64,000 bases of DNA from Citricoccus zhacaiensis (GTDB lineage Bacteria; Actinomycetota; Actinomycetes; Actinomycetales; Micrococcaceae): NCBI RefSeq assembly GCF_014645315.1, contig NZ_BMLQ01000002.1, positions 1 through 64,000 on the forward strand, given 5' to 3'. Both the position numbers and the translations under genes were made by a program. Position 1 is the first letter of the stretch. The number at the start of each line of letters is the position of its first letter. The notes under the pieces were generated by a model. That model did no database searches. It had not been told where the DNA came from and saw only the letters and a list, made by a program, of their open reading frames with translations. Positions 21,073 to 32,159 of the stretch are shown piece by piece.

Positions 21073-21168
21073 CCTGCTCCCCGATGGTGCTCTTCGGGCA
21101 GAAGTTGCGAGTGCTCTCTTGCCCGCGGGGCCATCACCCTTTCGGCTCCGGAGTGCCGCTCGCAATTG

Positions 21169-21205
21169 CTCTAAGCTACTCTAAATTTTTTAGAGTAGCT
21201 TAGAG
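21169..21205. promoter_or_regulatory. Palindrome A upstream of the AlbA_2 regulator (probable operator/promoter)
   Basis: A perfect 17-bp AT-rich inverted repeat (left arm 21169-21185, right arm 21189-21205, 3-base loop) ends seven bases before the regulator ATG (21213). The right arm extended to the ATG (21189-21215) is built of two tandem 10-mers, TTAGAGTAGC and TTAGAGTAGT. It matches the right arm of palindrome B (22674-22700) at 25 of 27 positions. There is no ordinary ribosome site between the palindrome and the ATG, so the mRNA may be leaderless and the repeat could overlap the promoter. The operator role is inferred. Confidence 0.65.
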
Positions 21206-21212
21206 TAGTTTC

Positions 21213-22628
21213 ATGCATGGCACCCCCGCAAGTCACCTCGCTTCTCTTCCGGAAGACGCCAGACTCAAAGCGCTGCTGGAAACCACTGAAGACCAGTGGT
21301 TCGACCGAAAGTCCGCCCGAGCAGCACCCAAGGACCTCGCTTCATTACTGGTGGCCTTGGCCAACGCAGAGGGTGGAACTGCCGCCATCGGTGTGCACGA
21401 TGGCGAGTACGATGGGCATCTCCTCACACCGGCCCGGAACAGTGCCTTACGCCAAGCGGCCATGGACCACACCAATCCGCCGGTCCGCATGGAGACCGAG
21501 GAAGTCAGCGTGGGAGATGACCGTTCCGTCCTCTTGATACACGTCCGCCCCGGCGACCAGGTCTACGAAACCAGCAAGGGCGATGCCTACCTCCGGGTCG
21601 GCGACGAGACTCGCAAACTGGGATTCAACCAACGGCGTGAGTTGGCGTATGACCGAGGCTCGGCGCAGTTCGAGGGAGAAGCAGCGCCAGGGGCAAGCAC
21701 TGATGACCTGGATTCAGATCAACTCCAGCGTTACCGCGACGCCATCGGCGCGGGCGCAGACGACCCGACGGCGCTCAGGGCGCGCAGTCTGTTGACACGC
21801 ACGGGCGACCTCACGGTTGCAGGTCTCCTGCTACTGGGCCACTCCCCCCAGCAATACCTACCCCAGGCTCTGGTCCGCGTAATGCGCTTCTCCGAACGGG
21901 ATCCTGGAACCGGTTCGCGGCAGTCTCTCGAGAGTGGCAAAGACCGACGCTTCGAGGGACCCATCCCCACCATCATCGACCAGGCAGCAGAGTGCATCTC
22001 GCAGTGGATGCCGAAGCGCCGCGCCCTGGGCGCATCCCGCCGGTTCGAGGACATCCCCTTGCTACCCGATGACGTGTGGCTGGAGGGACTGGTCAATGCC
22101 GTGGTCCACCGGTCCTACAGCCTCGCCGGGGACCATATCCGCGTCAGCATCTTTCCCGACCGGATCGAGGTGGAGAGCCCCGGCCGGTTTCCCGGACTTG
22201 CCGACCCGACCCATCCCCTAGACATCGCCCGTTATGCGAGGAATCCACGCGTTGCCCGCGTGTGTTCGGACCTGGGGATCACGCTGGAGCGCGGCGAGGG
22301 AATCCGCCGCATGTTCGAGGAGATGCGCGGGCTGGGCCTCGTCGACCCGCTGTACGAACAGACCGGCGGAAGTGTTCGCCTGACACTGGCGGCCACGTCT
22401 CGGCTCGATCCGGAGCTGGAGAGCCAGCTGCCCGCCGGAGCCGACGACCTGGTCCGGATGCTCCGGCAGCACGGCGGTGCCATCGGCACGGGAGAGATCG
22501 TGGAAGAGTCCGGGCGGTCCAGGCCATGGGTCCGGACTGTACTCGAAACCCTGCGGGAGGCCGGGGTGGTCGCCTGGGAGGGCAAGTCCCCCAAAGATCC
22601 GCGCGCAACGTGGCGCCTGGTCGATTGA
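21213..22628 (+). CDS. AlbA_2 (Schlafen-like) / HATPase_c_4 transcriptional regulator-type protein
   Basis: 471 residues. The N-terminal AlbA_2 domain (about 20-150) shows FDRKSARAAPKDLASLLVAL, ANAEGGTAAIGVHDG and ETSKGDAYLRVGDETRKL. The middle ATPase-like domain has EGLVNAVVHRSYS, the FPDRIEVESPGRFP block and ERGEGIRRMFEEM. A winged-helix region closes the C terminus (TGEIVEESGRSRPWVRTVLE). Such proteins are DNA-binding regulators or accessory factors often found near defence and mobile genes. It lies directly upstream of the Wadjet operon, 120 bp from jetA, and is bracketed by two related palindromes. I infer that it controls itself and jetABCD; an effector role is not excluded. Confidence 0.85.
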   Translation: MHGTPASHLASLPEDARLKALLETTEDQWFDRKSARAAPKDLASLLVALANAEGGTAAIGVHDGEYDGHLLTPARNSALRQAAMDHTNPPVRMETEEVSVGDDRSVLLIHVRPGDQVYETSKGDAYLRVGDETRKLGFNQRRELAYDRGSAQFEGEAAPGASTDDLDSDQLQRYRDAIGAGADDPTALRARSLLTRTGDLTVAGLLLLGHSPQQYLPQALVRVMRFSERDPGTGSRQSLESGKDRRFEGPIPTIIDQAAECISQWMPKRRALGASRRFEDIPLLPDDVWLEGLVNAVVHRSYSLAGDHIRVSIFPDRIEVESPGRFPGLADPTHPLDIARYARNPRVARVCSDLGITLERGEGIRRMFEEMRGLGLVDPLYEQTGGSVRLTLAATSRLDPELESQLPAGADDLVRMLRQHGGAIGTGEIVEESGRSRPWVRTVLETLREAGVVAWEGKSPKDPRATWRLVD

Positions 22629-22643
22629 TACACGCATCGCTGG

Positions 22644-22700
22644 CATGAAACTACTCGAAGTTACTCTAAAAAATTTAGAGTAACTTCGAGTAGTTTCATG
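22644..22700. promoter_or_regulatory. Palindrome B between regulator and jetA (57-bp perfect hairpin)
   Basis: Left arm 22644-22670 and right arm 22674-22700 are exact 27-bp reverse complements around an AAA loop. Each arm starts or ends with CATGAAACTACTC / GAGTAGTTTCATG. The right arm repeats the sequence in front of the regulator gene with two mismatches. Lying 16 bp after the regulator stop and about 50 bp before jetA, it could act as operator for the Wadjet operon, as terminator for the regulator, or both. It lacks a trailing T-run. Function inferred. Confidence 0.65.
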
Positions 22701-22748
22701 TAGCGCCGTCTGCCCTACCGCGTCCGGGCCACCTGACAGACTGTGCTC

Positions 22749-24224
22749 ATGTCCTCGCTCGTCCGGGCCCTGACGGTCCAGCGCCTCCTGCGGGAGGACA
22801 CCACCCTGCGCATGCTCCGGATGGACACCCTCCCCCTCCTGGCCGGCGTCCTCGCCGAGCACCTGGGCGCTCCCAACGCGAAGACCCCTACCCAGGACCT
22901 GCATGAGGCGGTCGACGCGGAGCTGGACTCCCTGCGCACCCACCTCGACCTCTCAGACCGCACGGCCAAGGCCTACTGCGACGACTGGCGCCAGACCGGA
23001 CTGCTCCTGCGCCGGCCCGCCTCCGACGCCCGCGCCGAGACCTACGAGCTCACCCCAGAGGCCCGTCACGGGCTGCGGGTCATCGAGGAGCTCATCGCGC
23101 CGCGGGCCGCCGCCACCGAGTCCCGGCTCGTTTCGCTGACCGGCGCCCTCCGCCAACTGGCCATCGCCACGGACCCGGACGTCGGGTCTCGGCTGGAGGC
23201 GTTGCAGGCTGAGCGAGACGCCCTGGACGAACGCATCCGCCGGGTCCGGTCCGGCGAGACCGGCGTGCTGGACTCCCGCCGCGCCCTGGAACGGGTGGGG
23301 GACATCCTGGCCCAGGCCGAGGACCTGCCCACCGACTTCGCCCGCGTCCGCGCCCGCTTCGAGGAGCTCAACCACGAGTTGCGGGTCAACATCCTGACCG
23401 GCGACGACCTGCCCGGCGGCGTGCTGGACGAGGTCTTCCGCGGCGTGGACCTGATCGAGTCCTCGGACGAGGGCCAGACCTTCGCGGGCTTCTCCCGGCT
23501 GGTGCGGGACCCGGAGATCTCCGAGTCCTTCGAGGCCGATCTGCGCTCCATCCTGGACCGGGACTTCGCGCGCAGCCTGACCCCGTCCTCCCGGACCGCG
23601 CTGCGCGGGCTCGTCCGCACCCTCAAGGACGGCTCCCGGACGGTGCAGGACTCCCTGGCGGAGTTCGCGCGCGGGCTGCGCCGTTATGTGCTCTCCCTCG
23701 AGTACCAGCGGGACCGGCAACTGCGCCTGACGCTGCAGGACGCCCTCGCCGCGGCCGTCCCGGCCCTGGCCGCCACGCGCCCCTACCATCATTCCGGCCT
23801 GGACCTGGAGATGACCGGCATGCAGGTGGCCTCGGTCGGCGAGGTCGCCCTCCACGATCCCTCGGAGTACGACGCCGGCCCGGTCCTGGATGACGCGCCG
23901 GTGGCGGTCGTGGACGTGGAGACGCTGCGGGCCATCGCCCGGCAGACCGAGATCGACTTCGCCGAACTCGAGGACAACGTCCACGCCGTCCTGACGGGGG
24001 CCACCGCCGAGCAGCGGTCCGCCGGAGTCTCCGTGGCGGAGGTCTTGGCGGCCTTCCCCGCGAGCCAGGGCGTGGCCAGCGTGGTGGGTCTGCTCTCCCT
24101 GGCCGCCCGCCACGGCACCGTGGATGCTGACCGCACGGACCTTGTCAGCTGGGACGGCGAGGACGGCCACCCGCGCCACGCCCGCGTGGTACGCCACGCC
24201 TTCACCGGAAGGATCAGGTCCTGA
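22749..24224 (+). CDS. jetA: Wadjet protein JetA (DUF3375)
   Basis: A 491-residue kleisin-like subunit of the type I Wadjet anti-plasmid complex (MukF-like role). The start MSSLVRALTVQRLLREDTTL and the winged-helix segment with YCDDWRQTGLLLRR...YELTPEARHGLRVIEEL are typical of DUF3375. The central part is helical and acidic. ATG 22749 is preferred over a GTG six bases upstream. The stop overlaps the jetB ATG (TGATG). The family is assigned from sequence and from the exact jetA-B-C-D gene order that follows. Confidence 0.93.
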   Translation: MSSLVRALTVQRLLREDTTLRMLRMDTLPLLAGVLAEHLGAPNAKTPTQDLHEAVDAELDSLRTHLDLSDRTAKAYCDDWRQTGLLLRRPASDARAETYELTPEARHGLRVIEELIAPRAAATESRLVSLTGALRQLAIATDPDVGSRLEALQAERDALDERIRRVRSGETGVLDSRRALERVGDILAQAEDLPTDFARVRARFEELNHELRVNILTGDDLPGGVLDEVFRGVDLIESSDEGQTFAGFSRLVRDPEISESFEADLRSILDRDFARSLTPSSRTALRGLVRTLKDGSRTVQDSLAEFARGLRRYVLSLEYQRDRQLRLTLQDALAAAVPALAATRPYHHSGLDLEMTGMQVASVGEVALHDPSEYDAGPVLDDAPVAVVDVETLRAIARQTEIDFAELEDNVHAVLTGATAEQRSAGVSVAEVLAAFPASQGVASVVGLLSLAARHGTVDADRTDLVSWDGEDGHPRHARVVRHAFTGRIRS

Positions 24225-24913
24225 TGACCGAGAACCCCCCACCGTCCGCCGACTCCCCCGAGGGAGCCACCGCGCCGGACCCGTCCCGCCCGATCCTGTG
24301 GTCCGGGGACACCGGCACGCTGGGCGAGGGGTCCCGGCGCGCCCTGCTGGACCTACTCAAGGGCCCCTACCTCTCCGGTGCGCGCAAGCCCCAGTTGTGG
24401 CAGTCCCTGGTGGCCGACGAGGACGCCGTGCGTTCCCGGCTGCACGACCTGTTCCTGGAGCTGGTGATCGACCACGCCGAGGAGTTCGCCTTCACGCGCA
24501 AGGTGACCACGGAGGAACTCCAGGTCCCGGCGGCACTGCGCAGCGAGGCCCTGACCTTCCTGGACACCGCCATGCTGCTGGTGTTGCGTCAGCAATTGTT
24601 GATGGCCGCGGGCGAGCGGCGAGTGATCGCCGGCCGGACGGAGGTCTTCGAACAGCTCTCGGTCTACCGCCAGGGCGATGAGTCCTCGTGGGCCCGCCGG
24701 CTGAACAGCTCCTGGACCAAGATGCTCAACAAGTTCAACGTCCTGCATACCGTGGACGAGGGCCGGGCGGAGATCTCCCCGGTGCTGAAGATGATGGTGG
24801 ACCACGACCAGGCGCGCGCCTTCGCCGAGCTCTACCGGACCCTTACTCCCGCCGACACCGACGAACGTGACGATCCGGACACCAGCGGGCCCGAAGCAGA
24901 GGAGACCCCATGA
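24224..24913 (+). CDS. jetB: Wadjet protein JetB (DUF4194)
   Basis: 229 residues; the KITE-like (MukE-type) winged-helix subunit that binds the JetA kleisin. The core reads LLDLLKGPYLSGARKPQLWQ, then VTTEELQVPAALRSEALTFL and RQQLLMAAGERRVIAGRTEV, ending in SWARRLNSSWTKMLNKFNVLH. The N- and C-terminal tails are acidic and disordered-looking. The gene overlaps jetA by one base and jetC by four, so the three are translationally coupled. Confidence 0.92.
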   Translation: MTENPPPSADSPEGATAPDPSRPILWSGDTGTLGEGSRRALLDLLKGPYLSGARKPQLWQSLVADEDAVRSRLHDLFLELVIDHAEEFAFTRKVTTEELQVPAALRSEALTFLDTAMLLVLRQQLLMAAGERRVIAGRTEVFEQLSVYRQGDESSWARRLNSSWTKMLNKFNVLHTVDEGRAEISPVLKMMVDHDQARAFAELYRTLTPADTDERDDPDTSGPEAEETP

Positions 24914-27900
24914 CCGCGCAGCAGAAGCTGGACTTCGGCCTCGGCGCCACCGCCGCTTCCTCGGCCCAGTGGCGCCTGGCGGAGGTCCAACTGGCCAACT
25001 GGGGCACCCTGGACGGGAGTATCTACCGGCTGCCCGTGGCCCGGAAGGGGCACCTGATCACCGGCCCCTCCGGCTCCGGGAAGTCCTCCATCCTGGACGC
25101 AATCGCCGCCGTGCTCACCCCGGACCAGTGGCTGCGCTTCAACCAGGCCGCGCAGGGTGGATCCGGCAAGGCACCCACCCGCAATCTCATGTCCTACCTG
25201 CGCGGGGCCTGGACCCGCACGCAGGACGAGTCCGAGGACCGGGTGGTCTCCGCCTACCTGCGTCCCCGGGCCACGTGGAGCGGCATCATCCTGCGCTACG
25301 AGTCCGGGACCGGCAAGACGGTGTCCCTGTGCCGGCTGTTCTTCCTCCGCGGCACCGCCACCACTCGGGCGGACATGCGGGACCTGTGCCTGCTGGAGCA
25401 CTCGGCCGTGGACTTGTCCGAGCTGCAGCCCTTCGTGGCCCAGGGCATCCAGACCCGCAAGGTCCAGTCGGCCTGGCCGAACGCCGTGGTCACCACGAAC
25501 ACCGCGCACGGGCCCTTCTACGCGCGGCTGCGCTCCGTGTTCGGCATCCGAGACGCCGCTGCCCTGCAGCTGCTGCACCGGACCCAGTCCGCCAAGGGGC
25601 TGGACTCCCTGGACCAGCTCTTCCGCCACCACATGCTCGAACGCCCGGCCACCTTCGCCATGGCCGAGAAGGCCGTGGAGGAGTTCGGCGCCCTGCGCAC
25701 CGCCTACGAGCGGGTGGTGGACCTGCGCCGCCAGCGGGACCACCTCGAGGGGCTGCGTGCCGCGGCCACCGAATATGAGGCGGCCCAGTCCCAGGCCGAC
25801 CGGTTGCGGGACCTCCAGGACGCCGTGCACCCGTACCAGCGGATCCGTCAGCTCGAGTTGATCCAGGACGAGCTCCACGGCCTGCGCGAATCCCTCCACG
25901 GGCTGCGGGCCGCCCACGAGCAGGCCGAGGCCGTCCACGCGCAGGCACGCCAGGCACACACGGACGCGCAGCTGACCTTGCACCAGGTCGGCGGCACCCG
26001 CGTCACGGACCTGCAGCGCCAGCGCGAGGAGCTGCGGGCCCGCCGCACGGAGGTCAGCGACCGTTGGGACACGCTGCGGTCCCGCCTGGAGCGCGCCGGG
26101 ATCGGCACGGTCCCGACGACGGCGGGCGAGTTCGCCGAGCTCCTCACCGAGATCGAGAAGGACCTCGAGGCCCCGGCGGCGGACCTCGGTCCCACCCACG
26201 AGCAGAACCGGGCCGCGTTCGAGACCCAGGACCGGCTCCGCCGGATCGACGCGGACATCGCTGCCCTGCGCCGCGGGTCCAGCGCGGTCCCGGCCCCGCT
26301 ACTGGGAGTCCGGGAGCGGCTGGCGGAGCAGCTTGGGGTGCCCACCTCCGCCCTGCCGTTCGCTGCGGAACTCCTCGAGGTGGAGGCCGGCCAGGAGCAG
26401 TGGGCGGGGGCGATCGAGCGGGTCCTGTCCCCGCTGTCCCTGACCCTGCTGGTCCCGGCCCGGCTCCTGCGCCAGGCCCGGAGCTGGATCGACGGTCACC
26501 ACCTGGGTCTGCGGCTGCGCTACGAGGAGGTCACCGGCACCACCGAGGCCGTCCGCCCGGCCCGCTCAGAGGCATCGCTGGTCCACAAGATCGCCGTCCG
26601 TCCGGGCGAGTTCCACGACTGGCTCCAGTCCCGCCTATCGTCCCGGTTCGACTACGCCTGCGTGAAGACTGCCGCCGAGCTGGATGACCACCTCCGCGCC
26701 GTCACCCTGGCCGGCCAGGTGAAGTCCTCGGCGACCAGTTACGAGAAGAACGACCGGCACCGCCTCGACGACCGCTCCCGTTGGGTCCTCGGAGACCCGG
26801 CGGCCAAGCTCGAGGCCCTGCTGGAGTCCCGGCACCTGGTGGAGGCCGAGCACGCCGAGGCGAGCGCCGCCGTCGAGCAGGCCCAGCGGGCCGCGAACCA
26901 CGAGCGCGACCGGCGCACGGCCCTACAGTCCGTGCGGGAGACCCCGTGGAAGGACGTGGACCACTGGACGGTCTCCCGGGCAGCCGAGGCGGTCGAGGAC
27001 CAGCTGCGGCAGCTCACCGAGGGGGACATCGGGCTGCAGGCGGCCACCGACCGCGAGCGGGCCGCCGCGTCCGAGGAGGGCGATGCGCAGACGGCGGCCC
27101 AGCAGGCCCGGCTGGAGCTGGACCGGGCCGAGACGGACGAGGCCCGGCTGGGCGCGGAGCGGGACGAGCTGCTGGCGCTGGGAGCCGGGACCGAGACGGT
27201 GCCGGAGCCGCTCGCCGTCGAGCTGGCCGCCCGCTTCCGGACAGTGCGGCGCAAGCTGACGCGGGTGTCCCTGCCGGAGACCACGCAGACGGTCCTGCGG
27301 GACATCGGCCGGGAGCTGGACGCCACGCGGTCGGCCTCGAACGGGGCAGCCACGCGCTGCACCATGCTGACCACCGAGTTCTCCCAGCTCTGGCCCTCCG
27401 TGGCGGCGGACGCCACACCGGGGGTGGAGGACCGCGGCTCCTACCTGCAGATCCTGGACCGGATCATCGGCCAGGGACTGCCCGAACACGAGTCCCGGTT
27501 CCAGCAGCTGCTGCACGAGCGGTCCTCCACCCTGATCGGGGAACTCTCCAGCGAGATCCGCTCGGCGCCCGGAGAGATCGAGAACCGGGTGGAACCCATC
27601 AACACGTCTCTCGCCCGCTCGCCCTTCGACGAGGGCCGGTTCCTGCGGCTGCGCGTCAAGACCCGGCGCTCGGAGACGGTACGGGGCTTCATGGCGGACC
27701 TGGCCGCCGTCGCCGAGCATTCCTGGTCCGAGGAGGACCTGACGGCCGCGGAGAACCGGTACCGGCGGCTGGCCGCGATCATGGACCGCTTCGCCTCCTC
27801 CGAGCATGCCGACCGGACGTGGCGGCAGGCCTGCCTGGATACCCGCGAGCACGTCACGTTCCTGGCGGACGAGGTCGATGTCCACGGCACGGCCCACGCC

Positions 27901-28269
27901 ACGTACGACTCGGGTGCGGCCATGTCCGGCGGCCAGCAGCAGAAGCTCGTGATCTTCTGCTTGGCGGCGGCGCTGCGCTACCAGCTGGCGTCCCCGGACG
28001 ATCCGCTGCCGGCCTACGGCACCGTGATCCTGGACGAGGCCTTCGACAAGGCCGATGTGCGCTACACCCGGATGGCCATGGACGTGTTCGTGGAGTTCGG
28101 CTTCCAGATGGTCCTCGCCACCCCGCAAAAGCTGCTGCAGACCATCGAGCCGTACGTCGGCGGGATCACCACCGTGGAGAACCCCAGCCGGCGCCTCACC
28201 CGGCTGGCCGATGTCACCTGGGAGTCCGGGGGCACGGCTGGTCGCGGAGACGCCGAGAGCTCGGCATGA
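24910..28269 (+). CDS. jetC: Wadjet SMC-like ATPase JetC
   Basis: The 1119-residue motor of the complex, MukB/SbcC-like. Walker A GPSGSGKSS lies at residues 52-60, long coiled-coil arms rich in Glu/Arg/Leu occupy roughly 230-420 and 600-900, and an ABC signature SGGQQQKLVIFCLAAALRY lies near 1005. Walker B is GTVILDEAFDKAD near 1037. JetABC dimers extrude DNA loops and present small circular DNA to JetD. The catalytic motifs look intact, so the motor should be active. The jetD ATG overlaps the stop (ATGA). Confidence 0.94.
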   Translation: MTAQQKLDFGLGATAASSAQWRLAEVQLANWGTLDGSIYRLPVARKGHLITGPSGSGKSSILDAIAAVLTPDQWLRFNQAAQGGSGKAPTRNLMSYLRGAWTRTQDESEDRVVSAYLRPRATWSGIILRYESGTGKTVSLCRLFFLRGTATTRADMRDLCLLEHSAVDLSELQPFVAQGIQTRKVQSAWPNAVVTTNTAHGPFYARLRSVFGIRDAAALQLLHRTQSAKGLDSLDQLFRHHMLERPATFAMAEKAVEEFGALRTAYERVVDLRRQRDHLEGLRAAATEYEAAQSQADRLRDLQDAVHPYQRIRQLELIQDELHGLRESLHGLRAAHEQAEAVHAQARQAHTDAQLTLHQVGGTRVTDLQRQREELRARRTEVSDRWDTLRSRLERAGIGTVPTTAGEFAELLTEIEKDLEAPAADLGPTHEQNRAAFETQDRLRRIDADIAALRRGSSAVPAPLLGVRERLAEQLGVPTSALPFAAELLEVEAGQEQWAGAIERVLSPLSLTLLVPARLLRQARSWIDGHHLGLRLRYEEVTGTTEAVRPARSEASLVHKIAVRPGEFHDWLQSRLSSRFDYACVKTAAELDDHLRAVTLAGQVKSSATSYEKNDRHRLDDRSRWVLGDPAAKLEALLESRHLVEAEHAEASAAVEQAQRAANHERDRRTALQSVRETPWKDVDHWTVSRAAEAVEDQLRQLTEGDIGLQAATDRERAAASEEGDAQTAAQQARLELDRAETDEARLGAERDELLALGAGTETVPEPLAVELAARFRTVRRKLTRVSLPETTQTVLRDIGRELDATRSASNGAATRCTMLTTEFSQLWPSVAADATPGVEDRGSYLQILDRIIGQGLPEHESRFQQLLHERSSTLIGELSSEIRSAPGEIENRVEPINTSLARSPFDEGRFLRLRVKTRRSETVRGFMADLAAVAEHSWSEEDLTAAENRYRRLAAIMDRFASSEHADRTWRQACLDTREHVTFLADEVDVHGTAHATYDSGAAMSGGQQQKLVIFCLAAALRYQLASPDDPLPAYGTVILDEAFDKADVRYTRMAMDVFVEFGFQMVLATPQKLLQTIEPYVGGITTVENPSRRLTRLADVTWESGGTAGRGDAESSA

Positions 28270-29525
28270 GCCCGGACCCGATGGTCTCCCCCGAGGCAGC
28301 ACGCTCCGAGGCCCGGCGCCGGCTCACCGCCTCCCACCGGCGGTGGACCCTGGACGGATGGTCGCAGCCGGTCTGGACCCTGCCCCTGCGCCCGCCGACC
28401 GAACGCCAGGTCCTGGCCGACCCCGCAGCCGCCGAGGCCTGGGTCCGCGGCTGGGCCGGACGGTCCCTGACGGCGGGCCTCAGCCTGGACTGGGAGGACC
28501 GGACCTGGCGCAGCGTCGGCACCCAACGGGTCCCCGTGCGGCTGGTCGCGCAATCACCGGAGGACCTGGCCGGATTCGCCGGCGGCCCGGTGGCGGCGGA
28601 GGCCACTCGGTTCGCCGCGCGGGTGGCGCGGATCCGCACCGACTACCCGGCCGCCGTCGGGCAGAGCCCGCTGGCCCGCTACTTGGGTGGCCCTGACGTT
28701 CCAGCAGATGATGGGGATCCCGGCGACCCCCGGCACGAGAGGCTCAACGCCGCCCTTCGCCGCCATGCGGAGCGTCTCACCGGACTGCCGGACGAGGAGT
28801 TCGACCGGATGCTGGGGGTGCTCGCGTGGCTCGCCCGGCATCCGGTCGCCGGGCTCCGGCCGCGGCAGCTACCCATCCGCGGAGTGGACTCCAAGTGGTT
28901 CTCCGTGCATCGGACCGTGCTGACGGCCCTGCACGGGGCGTTGGCGTCCGTGCCCGTGGATCTCGGCGTGGTCGACGCCGACCCGCGCGTCCGCATGCGG
29001 GTGCTGGACCCGTCGATGCGACCGGCCGGACTGGAGGACCTCGAGCTGCCCATGGCGGAGGCCGTCACACTGGATGGGGTACTGGGCGGGGCACTGGAGC
29101 GGGTGCTGATCGTGGAGAACAAGGAGACGCTGCTGTGCCTACCGGAGGCCCGCGGCGTGTTGGCCATCTGGGGGCGGGGATTCGACACCGCGGCCGCGGT
29201 GCTGCCGTGGTTGGCTGGCGTGCCGATCACCTACTGGGGTGATCTGGACTCGCAGGGATTCGCCATCCTGCACCGGTACCGTTCGCACCTGCCCCAGGTC
29301 GAGAGCGTGCTGATGGACGAGGCCACCCTGGAGGACTTCGCAGACCTCTGGGTGCCCGAGCCGAAGCCGTTCCGTGGCGCCCTGGTCACCCTCACCCCGG
29401 CCGAGTCACGGACGGTGGAGCGGCTGCGTGCTGAAGGCGACGTGCGATTGGAGCAGGAACGGGTCTCGTGGCCTTACGCGCTGGCCCGGCTGGCCTCCCA
29501 CCTGCGACTGCAGGTTGATGGGTGA
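28266..29525 (+). CDS. jetD: Wadjet nuclease JetD (DUF3322-DUF2220, Toprim)
   Basis: 419-residue topoisomerase-VI-like nuclease that cuts plasmid DNA loaded by JetABC. The N-terminal DUF3322 portion spans about residues 10-180 (LTASHRRWTLDGWSQPVWTL). The C-terminal DUF2220/Toprim part carries the acidic catalytic set: ERVLIVENKETLLCLP (Glu near 285) and ITYWGDLDSQGFAIL (D-L-D near 326). The start is the ATG overlapping the jetC stop; although the frame stays open far upstream inside jetC, that part has no coding character. It completes a full type I jetABCD set. Confidence 0.93.
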   Translation: MSPDPMVSPEAARSEARRRLTASHRRWTLDGWSQPVWTLPLRPPTERQVLADPAAAEAWVRGWAGRSLTAGLSLDWEDRTWRSVGTQRVPVRLVAQSPEDLAGFAGGPVAAEATRFAARVARIRTDYPAAVGQSPLARYLGGPDVPADDGDPGDPRHERLNAALRRHAERLTGLPDEEFDRMLGVLAWLARHPVAGLRPRQLPIRGVDSKWFSVHRTVLTALHGALASVPVDLGVVDADPRVRMRVLDPSMRPAGLEDLELPMAEAVTLDGVLGGALERVLIVENKETLLCLPEARGVLAIWGRGFDTAAAVLPWLAGVPITYWGDLDSQGFAILHRYRSHLPQVESVLMDEATLEDFADLWVPEPKPFRGALVTLTPAESRTVERLRAEGDVRLEQERVSWPYALARLASHLRLQVDG

Positions 29526-30582: not shown

Positions 30583-32159
30583 ATGTTCATCGCCCCCACG
30601 GAGGTGGTCCTCGCCACCACTGCTGACGATCTGCAGACGGCCCGCACGCAGGCCGGCTCGTGGCGGTCCAAGGAGATGGGCATCCCGGACCGGTACCTCT
30701 CCGATGCCGCCTTGGCGGACCTGGCGGCGGCCGCAGAGTCCGTGCAGGATGCCGGCTTCGCCCGTGCCGTGATGGCCGTCCAGTCCGCCCGCGCCGGTGA
30801 CTTCGCCCCGATCCCGAACATCAACTCCGCCGTGGAACTCTTCCGCGAATTCCTCAAGGACGGGCTGATCGACGGCTGGCTCTACGTCCAGGAGCCCGAC
30901 GGCTACCTGCACCCCTACCTGGTGATGGACATCGGGCTGGACCACGGTGACCGCACCCGCCCGCCGCGCATCAAGATCACGATGGAGGCGGACAATCCCA
31001 CGGTCAAGCGCCCCTCCCGGGCACCGCGGCTGCTGCAGTTCGACGAGACCGAGCTGGTCGGCAAGACGCCCGCGGACGTCCTGACCGCGCATCGGGCGTT
31101 CAAGGAGACGGAGCGGCTGCGGGCGGAGTACCAGGAGCGCCGGGATGCGTTCCAGGACATCATCGACCACGACTTCGGCCAGCAGTTCGTCTTCACCGGC
31201 CGTGCCATGCGCACCGAGGACTACCGCTCGGCCCATGACCGCACCCACCGCAAGGTCGTCCACGACGTGGCCCCGGACGAACGGGCACCCCTGCGGATGG
31301 TGGCCTCCTCCGTCCTCTTCGACGAACAGGAGACCGGCGCGGTCCCCGTGGTCACCGCCGTGCGTGTGTTCGACCTCGCCGCCCAGGACTACCTGGACGT
31401 CAACACCGCCGACCTCACCCGTTACGAGTACAACCCGGGGCTGCGGGACAAGCTGGTGCTGCCGGACGACCAGCGCGAGCTGCTGGACATCCTCACCTCG
31501 GACATCTCCGTGTTCACCGGAGACATCATCGAGGGCAAGTCCGCCGGGAACGTGATCCTGGCCCGCGGCCGGCCCGGCGTCGGCAAGACGCTGACTGCCG
31601 AGGTGTACGCCGAGGTCATCGGACGCCCGCTCTACTCCATCCACACCGGCTCTCTGGGCATCCCGCGGAACTGGTGCGTAAGAACCTCGAGGAAATCTTC
31701 GTCCAGGCCAAGCGCTGGGACGCCGTGCTGCTGCTGGACGAGGCCGACGTCTTCGTGCTGGAGCGCGGGTTCGAATTGCACCAGAACGCGATCGTGGCCG
31801 AGTTCCTGCGCACCCTCGAGTACTACGACGGGCTGCTGTTCCTCACCACGAACCGGATCGACGAGGTGGACGGGGCCATCCTCGCCCGTTGTGCCGCCGT
31901 CATCGACTACCGCTCCCCCGAGCCGGATGCCGCCCGCCAGATCTGGCAGACCTTCGCCGCCGGCCACCAGGTCACCCTGCCCGATGGCCTGCTGGACCAG
32001 CTCGTGGACGGCTTCCCGGACATCACGCCCCGGGACATCAAAATGCTGCTGAGGCTCGGCCTGCGCATGGCCGCCCACCGGGACACGGCACCGGATCTCG
32101 ACGTCTTCACCGCCGCCGCCCGCTTCCGAGGGCTGCAGTACATCCCGTCCAGCCCATAG
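30583..32159 (+). pseudogene. AAA-family ATPase, frameshifted
   Basis: Read through the break, a protein of about 525 aa emerges. It has a 300-residue N-terminal region of unknown fold, Walker A ARGRPGVGKTLTAEVYAE, then after the frameshift Walker B WDAVLLLDEADVFVLERG, sensor LLFLTTNRIDEVDGAI and arginine-finger-like ARCAAVIDYRSPE. At 31662-31664 a CCC run is one C short. HTGSLGIP should continue AELVRKNLEEIFVQAK but goes out of frame and the first frame runs on as nonsense to 32052. One base in a homopolymer may equally be a sequencing error. It lies 53 bp before catA; its role is unknown (chaperone-like remodelling is a guess). Confidence 0.85.

Follow-up and report, generated by a model that had tools for sequence, protein, structure and literature searches.

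A solitary Schlafen-type gene with an operator-like palindromic array over its apparent promoter, lying beside a Wadjet operon in Citricoccus zhacaiensis

Introduction

In a 64,000-nucleotide stretch of Citricoccus zhacaiensis DNA (positions 1 to 64,000 of contig NZ_BMLQ01000002.1, assembly GCF_014645315.1; hereafter the window), a gene for a Schlafen-type protein lies between two related palindromes, A and B, at the head of a type I Wadjet defence operon, which raises the question of whether these palindromes serve the operon or the gene. The original prediction took the arrangement to be an autoregulated switch for the defence operon and, as a less favoured reading, the two ends of a small mobile unit that had carried the gene in. 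Bacterial Schlafen-type proteins have newly been linked to phage defence, and what restrains such potentially toxic proteins is of interest here; the portions of PMC12839542 available to us place bacterial Schlafen-family proteins, composed of a Schlafen RNase, a minimal histidine kinase and a winged helix-turn-helix, in BREX and related loci, and cite Taboada et al. (2025 preprint) on bacterial Schlafens in defence against phages. From comparison of the window with related loci, we consider it probable that this is an autoregulated Schlafen-type gene within a portable array-gene-array unit that came to lie beside Wadjet.

The palindromes and the gene between them

The features that make up the unit are as follows.

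21164..21210 (perfect core 21169-21205), no strand: palindrome A, operator-like, with two 10-bp half-sites per arm
21201..21206, + strand: TAGAGT, resembling a -10 hexamer and spaced 6 nt from the start codon, of a putative leaderless promoter
21213..22628, + strand: Schlafen-type gene, 471 aa, with AlbA_2 (26-136), HATPase_c_4 (306-392) and winged-helix (about 399-471) domains from model matches and among the fold matches listed
22644..22700, no strand: palindrome B, a second operator-like copy with perfect 27-bp arms
21164..22700, + strand: the whole array-gene-array unit, bounded by A and B, missing at the Wadjet locus of the same-genus genome G034 and with equivalents in relatives

The two palindromes originally described are confirmed, and both are exact. 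Palindrome A has perfect 17-bp arms around a 3-nt loop (21169-21205) and is 91% paired across 21164-21210, and palindrome B has perfect 27-bp arms, likewise around a 3-nt loop. The two are 83% identical across 52 nt, and the right arms (21189-21215 in A and 22674-22700 in B) differ at 2 of 27 bases, in agreement with the 25/27 identity first reported. The predicted placement also holds: the ATG of the gene at 21213 stands at the end of A, and B, which begins 15 nt past the stop codon, ends 42 nt before the GTG start of jetA at 22743 and 48 nt before its in-frame ATG at 22749, close to the 50 bp originally given. With up to two mismatches allowed, exactly two copies of the core TACTCTAAANNNTTTAGAGTA are present in the window (0.00 expected), and no copy beyond A and B was found in the 3.69-Mb genome at 0-1 mismatch, with which a second pattern concurs. 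Folded as single-stranded DNA, A and B give z-scores of -7.7 and -14.1.

By its domain content the enclosed gene is a bacterial Schlafen-type gene, with a nuclease-like AlbA_2 domain, a GHKL-like domain and a C-terminal winged helix. The 471-aa protein carries the SLFN AlbA_2 domain (Pfam) and a GHKL/HATPase_c_4 domain (PF13749, E 4.1e-20); the winged helix is present at its C-terminus, where the Pfam helix-turn-helix (HTH) match is weak. Acidic nuclease residues are retained among the aligned rows, E26 and D/E31 in 47/47 and D/E67 in 42/47, and by their offset these presumably correspond to the SLFN catalytic residues; the GHKL residues E291, N295 and H299 are kept in 47/47 rows. No transposase or recombinase domain was found, Pfam giving AlbA_2, HATPase_c_4 and the weak HTH only, and NCBIfam has no family for the protein. 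Its PHROGs match is a single family annotated DNA helicase, and the PADLOC matches of the gene are to three pAgo/Aga-type models only. Phage homologues (L095, L096) bear the annotation DNA helicase or RecG-like, which seems to derive from the description of PF13749; Pfam found no helicase domain in the window protein. Stops or frame breaks interrupt copies of the gene at L087, L092/L181, L079, L216 and L217, so that it seems to decay as well as spread.

Half-site arrays in relatives and the gene's promoter

Named genomes yielded 73 loci with relatives, of which 11 were dropped as not full length; the remaining 62, together with the window and two phage loci, form the 65 loci in which arrays were counted. 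Half-sites were scored with the pattern TACTN(2-3)AA from 300 bp upstream to 45 bp into the gene and in 300 bp downstream; four near-duplicate Micropruina loci were excluded from the flank-element count and from those made after it, the array-type count among them. At least two half-sites lie upstream in 53/65 loci and downstream in 20/65, against 5/2509 control windows, and the densities are 8.3 per kb upstream and 4.2 per kb downstream, against 0.11 in controls. The half-sites themselves differ between loci (CTACTCTAAA, CTACTTGAAA, CTACTCGAAA, CTACTGGAAA and others), and the two flanks of a locus have a half-site type in common in 15 of 25 cases, where shuffling gives 7.0 and 0 of 5000 shuffles reach the observed number. 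Phages, too, carry relatives of 51-53% identity (Mycobacterium phage Squirty; a group of Gordonia phages), which sit in the immunity region near the integrase, and in the two phage loci that were read a like palindrome precedes the gene start. Several loci with a second array 3' of the gene have their two modules as long direct repeats, and in Corynebacterium the downstream arrays copy the entire upstream module. Across the loci compared, the array is conserved together with the Schlafen-type gene.

Some candidates were set aside. GACCTGC was tried as a second flank element and was not used, its enrichment being mild (20/61 upstream and 16/61 downstream, against 356/2299 controls). A Streptococcus dysgalactiae plasmid (L098:5414-5613) has 20 perfect tandem copies of the 10-mer TAGGATACAG behind the stop codon of its homologue; this array was not counted as support, since the repeat at its promoter is a different one. 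Viral contigs contain five exact matches to the core, beside which no copy of the gene was found in the stretches examined, and a protein scan of the viral contigs was also empty; on one of them (L142:2426-2446), tandem TACTCTAAAG and the palindrome core stand just ahead of a possible start codon.

The position of the upstream array relative to the start codon suggests its role. A TANAGT hexamer just before the start codon is the geometry of leaderless promoters in actinobacteria. Among 74 loci (the 78 without L202, L210, L217 and L218), 44 have TANAGT at 6 or 7 nt from an in-frame start, 36 of them with a spacing of exactly 6 nt, against 3/1480 random positions, so that the palindrome overlaps an apparent leaderless promoter, with its right arm as the -10. 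An operator-like site thus covers what, by sequence alone, appears to be the gene's own promoter, and we infer that a protein bound to the palindrome would block it. A conserved operator-like element in this position is best read as a means of autoregulation, most likely with the protein repressing its own promoter. This part of the originally proposed switch is probably right, given the conserved element; its assignment to Wadjet is not supported, as set out below.

Another factor might instead bind the arrays, which could, for instance, be the arm-type sites of a tyrosine integrase. A family of about 337 aa that includes two phage integrases is present in 10 loci, and units bracketed by tRNA sequences exist; in most loci, however, no such protein appears, and the arrays follow the gene together with its -10, which makes this explanation very improbable.

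Relation to the Wadjet operon

The unit is placed between an AMP-ligase gene and the type I Wadjet operon, whose four genes match PADLOC Wadjet models of the JetA1-D1 series.

22743..24224, + strand: jetA (context), start GTG 22743 or ATG 22749
24224..24913, + strand: jetB (context), PADLOC
24910..28269, + strand: jetC (context), PADLOC
28266..29525, + strand: jetD (context), 419 aa, PADLOC

If the gene were a dedicated Wadjet regulator, it would control jetABCD through B and itself through A, and the layout lends itself to this reading: only a short distance separates B from jetA downstream of it, both run in one direction, and B matches A and retains one TAGAGT. The relatives argue otherwise. 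A tblastn search at E up to 1e-3, in sets that overlap (for example L024 with L201) and with some flanks short, found no jet gene in the DNA examined around 73 named-genome, 2 phage and 20 order-level relatives or 9 from the genus of G435. In the order-level sample of 396 genomes, the Schlafen-type gene, counted at E up to 1e-60, is present in 24 and jetA in 170, and jetA occurs in 10 of the 24 gene-bearing genomes (42%, against 43% overall), so that co-occurrence is not raised. Only in the window genome (G000) among these 10 does the gene adjoin jetA, and in 4 of the other 9 the two are on different contigs.

G034 has an orthologous Wadjet operon (JetA 82%, JetB 76%, JetC 77%, JetD 59%) that directly follows the same AMP-ligase gene, without the Schlafen-type gene and without either palindrome. 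Before its jetA stands a long imperfect inverted repeat of its own (L133:3410-3560), unrelated in sequence, so that the palindrome expected from the prediction does not recur in this one orthologue compared. The arrangement that would have separated the palindromes from the gene, with the gene absent and both palindromes kept, was not seen; in G034 they are lacking together. In the genomes searched, by sequence comparison, the palindromes go with the Schlafen-type gene and not with Wadjet.

The orientation of downstream neighbours bears on the same point. Neighbouring open reading frames were called by a simple script, so that neighbour names and gaps are approximate, and the count left out L022, L044, L051 and L070, where no gene was placed; the call at L087 was an overlapping one, and L023 gave none. 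Among 15 loci that have two or more downstream half-sites and a neighbour call fit for use, the next gene is convergent in 10, so that a downstream array does not in general serve as promoter of the gene that follows. Taken with the relatives and with G034, this leaves a dedicated Wadjet module distinctly improbable. It is quite possible, if somewhat short of probable, that in this strain palindrome B has placed jetA under the same control as the gene.

Convergent neighbours would also suit a terminator or insulator of the gene, a function for B that its start 15 nt past the stop, its folding z of -14.1 and its terminator-like score in a terminator scan are likewise consistent with. Against this, the count in the scan was no higher than chance (1 against a mean of 1.0), downstream and promoter arrays share half-site cores, and the Corynebacterium downstream arrays are copies of the whole upstream module; we regard it as unlikely that B is a terminator and not an operator. 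Past the Wadjet operon, window positions 30583-32052 hold a 489-aa open frame without a Pfam or PADLOC match (E 0.001).

The second array and the movement of the unit

Direct repeats of at least 30 bp and at least 84% identity were sought within 600 bp on each side of the gene in 70 of 78 loci, leaving out L202, L210 and six short-flank loci; L201, L206 and L209 were dropped as the same places. Such repeats bracket the gene in 24/70 loci, against 1/426 random intervals. By our reading, half-site arrays lie within the repeats of 14 loci; another 5 represent duplicated tRNA ends, and the last 5 are repeats of other kinds. The tRNA-bracketed units (L026, L031, L053, L063, L071) enclose 1.8-2.3 kb, with little room beyond this gene. 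In a search with joined repeats, the pair was found at the gene in 14/14 genomes, with a second copy 77-97% identical, and the repeat occurs elsewhere in those 14 genomes as a single 36-bp partial match; dispersal of the modules like miniature inverted-repeat transposable elements (MITEs) was, apart from that match, not seen. The genome G435 (L211, L284-L288) has direct repeats of about 125 bp by the gene; they are members of a MITE-like family that is dispersed, has inverted ends and counts six more copies at 72-80% identity.

The gene has no constant company. In a scan of 80 neighbours, none of the 84 Pfam families found had more than 2 members, and PADLOC matches were scattered. In the family sample, 12 distant homologues only (28-32% identity) were found, and no close relative of the gene at E up to 1e-20 in the other 294 genomes. 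In the same-genus genome G003, in which the gene was not found, a solo palindrome with perfect 20-bp arms lies at L134:6337-6379; no credible gene remnant was found near it in 13 kb (best E 0.23), and no contiguous empty site for it in relatives. G607 was considered as an empty site for the Brachybacterium locus L201 and proved uninformative, as its two flanking genes are separated by an oxidase-like gene.

These observations lend some support to the mobile-unit reading that the original prediction had ranked second, chiefly through the flanking direct repeats and the tRNA-bracketed units, and we infer that array and gene are passed around as a unit. A stronger version holds that the palindromes are mainly the ends at which the unit recombines or transposes through the action of its own protein or of a helper recombinase, with control being secondary. 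The repeats in 24 of 70 loci, the five tRNA-overlapping cases, the homologues near the integrase in two phage groups and the solo palindrome of G003 would all suit it. The protein, however, has no transposase or recombinase domain, there are no extra copies in its own genome and one short partial match in 14 others, the -10 geometry shows a promoter role and no target duplication is read at the window, and we consider it unlikely, to much the same degree as a terminator, that the palindromes are primarily mobile ends.

Several observations weigh against an autoregulated, portable array-gene-array unit. The TANAGT geometry is missing in 30/74 loci, and in the window region a pattern scan found no sigma-70-type promoter and a -35 is not evident. 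With the pattern used, fewer than two half-sites lie upstream in 12/65 loci and downstream in 45/65, so that the paired layout is a feature of a subset. Ahead of its start, the distant Streptococcus homologue (L098, 35%) carries another inverted repeat, unlike the arrays. Comparison of G034 with the window does not give a clean insertion: the intergenic sequence is different to the left and to the right, and a target duplication is not readable. Finally, a relic matching gene residues 22-81 lies behind the right-hand module of L055, 115 bp past the stop, and L052 has, ahead of its left-hand module, a 100% identical copy of the gene's final 45 bp, which points to tandem duplication and loss in at least these two of 78 loci.

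These relics raise the possibility that the second array is in general what remains of a tandem duplication whose second gene copy was lost, the 3' array having no function. The upstream repeat of L041, which includes the final 21 bp of the gene, would agree with this. Such remnants are nevertheless few among the 78 loci (L052, L055, L041 and a 19-bp match in L064), B is more perfect than A, which is unexpected of a decaying relic, and the modules of L055 and L059 are still 92-95% alike; a functionless relic seems to us rather unlikely. The second array may come from insertion or from tandem duplication of the unit.

The Corynebacterium pair L055/L059 bears on how the two modules stay alike. 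Within each locus the modules are 92% and 95% alike, and between the species the left-left and right-right comparisons give 75-79%, which fits homogenisation. The flanks of the pair are 80% and 86% identical and the gene region 73%, and in L055 about 3.9 kb separates the gene from the matching right flank; with this gap and the lower identity of the gene region, exchange for another unit is no less possible than homogenisation.

Discussion

For the autoregulated portable unit that we favour, the following sequence of events can be proposed. The winged helix is predicted to bind half-sites of 10-11 bp of the type CTACTYKMAA, which as inverted and tandem copies would cover the -10 of the gene's own leaderless promoter. 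Binding would keep a potentially toxic protein low until a signal, perhaps infection, releases it. Array and gene would be exchanged between genomes as a unit, which in this strain would have landed between the AMP-ligase gene and Wadjet. A broader and less likely proposal, which we put forward as tentative, is that solitary Schlafen-type genes may be widespread single-gene immune cassettes in which paired, co-evolving repeat modules act both as a silencing operator and as ends for keeping, homogenising and exchanging the unit between genomes and phages.

A palindromic array over a leaderless -10, sometimes repeated 3' of the gene, would offer a concrete candidate operator for Schlafen-type genes in many actinobacteria and two temperate phage groups. 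The units bracketed by tRNA sequences, about 2 kb long, suggest a type of mobile element of very small size, and the window illustrates how a portable promoter-operator could put a neighbouring defence operon under new control.

No description of flanking arrays for this family was found in open-licence PubMed Central, and print elsewhere could hold one. Among known proteins, 3LMM of Corynebacterium diphtheriae is 22% identical, longer and uncharacterised, its function not known. A single gene bracketed by palindromes is also the layout of repetitive extragenic palindromes with their associated tyrosine transposases (RAYT/REP elements) and of insertion sequences, and the likeness lies in this layout; unlike them, the window unit has no transposase domain, and no dispersed palindrome copies were found in its own genome. 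A further parallel is offered by WYL-domain regulators of phage-defence loci, presumably those that go by the names BrxR and CapW. In the portions of PMC9122601 available to us, these resemble the window gene, as an idea, in being regulator genes beside defence genes; the window gene belongs to another protein family, travels without a defence operon and has a nuclease-like domain. The closest comparison is with the BREX-associated Schlafens: although the window gene is solitary, has no conserved neighbour, lies by Wadjet and not BREX, and bears operator-like arrays of which the available portions of PMC12839542 make no mention for the BREX Schlafens, it has the same three-part architecture and likewise stands beside defence genes.

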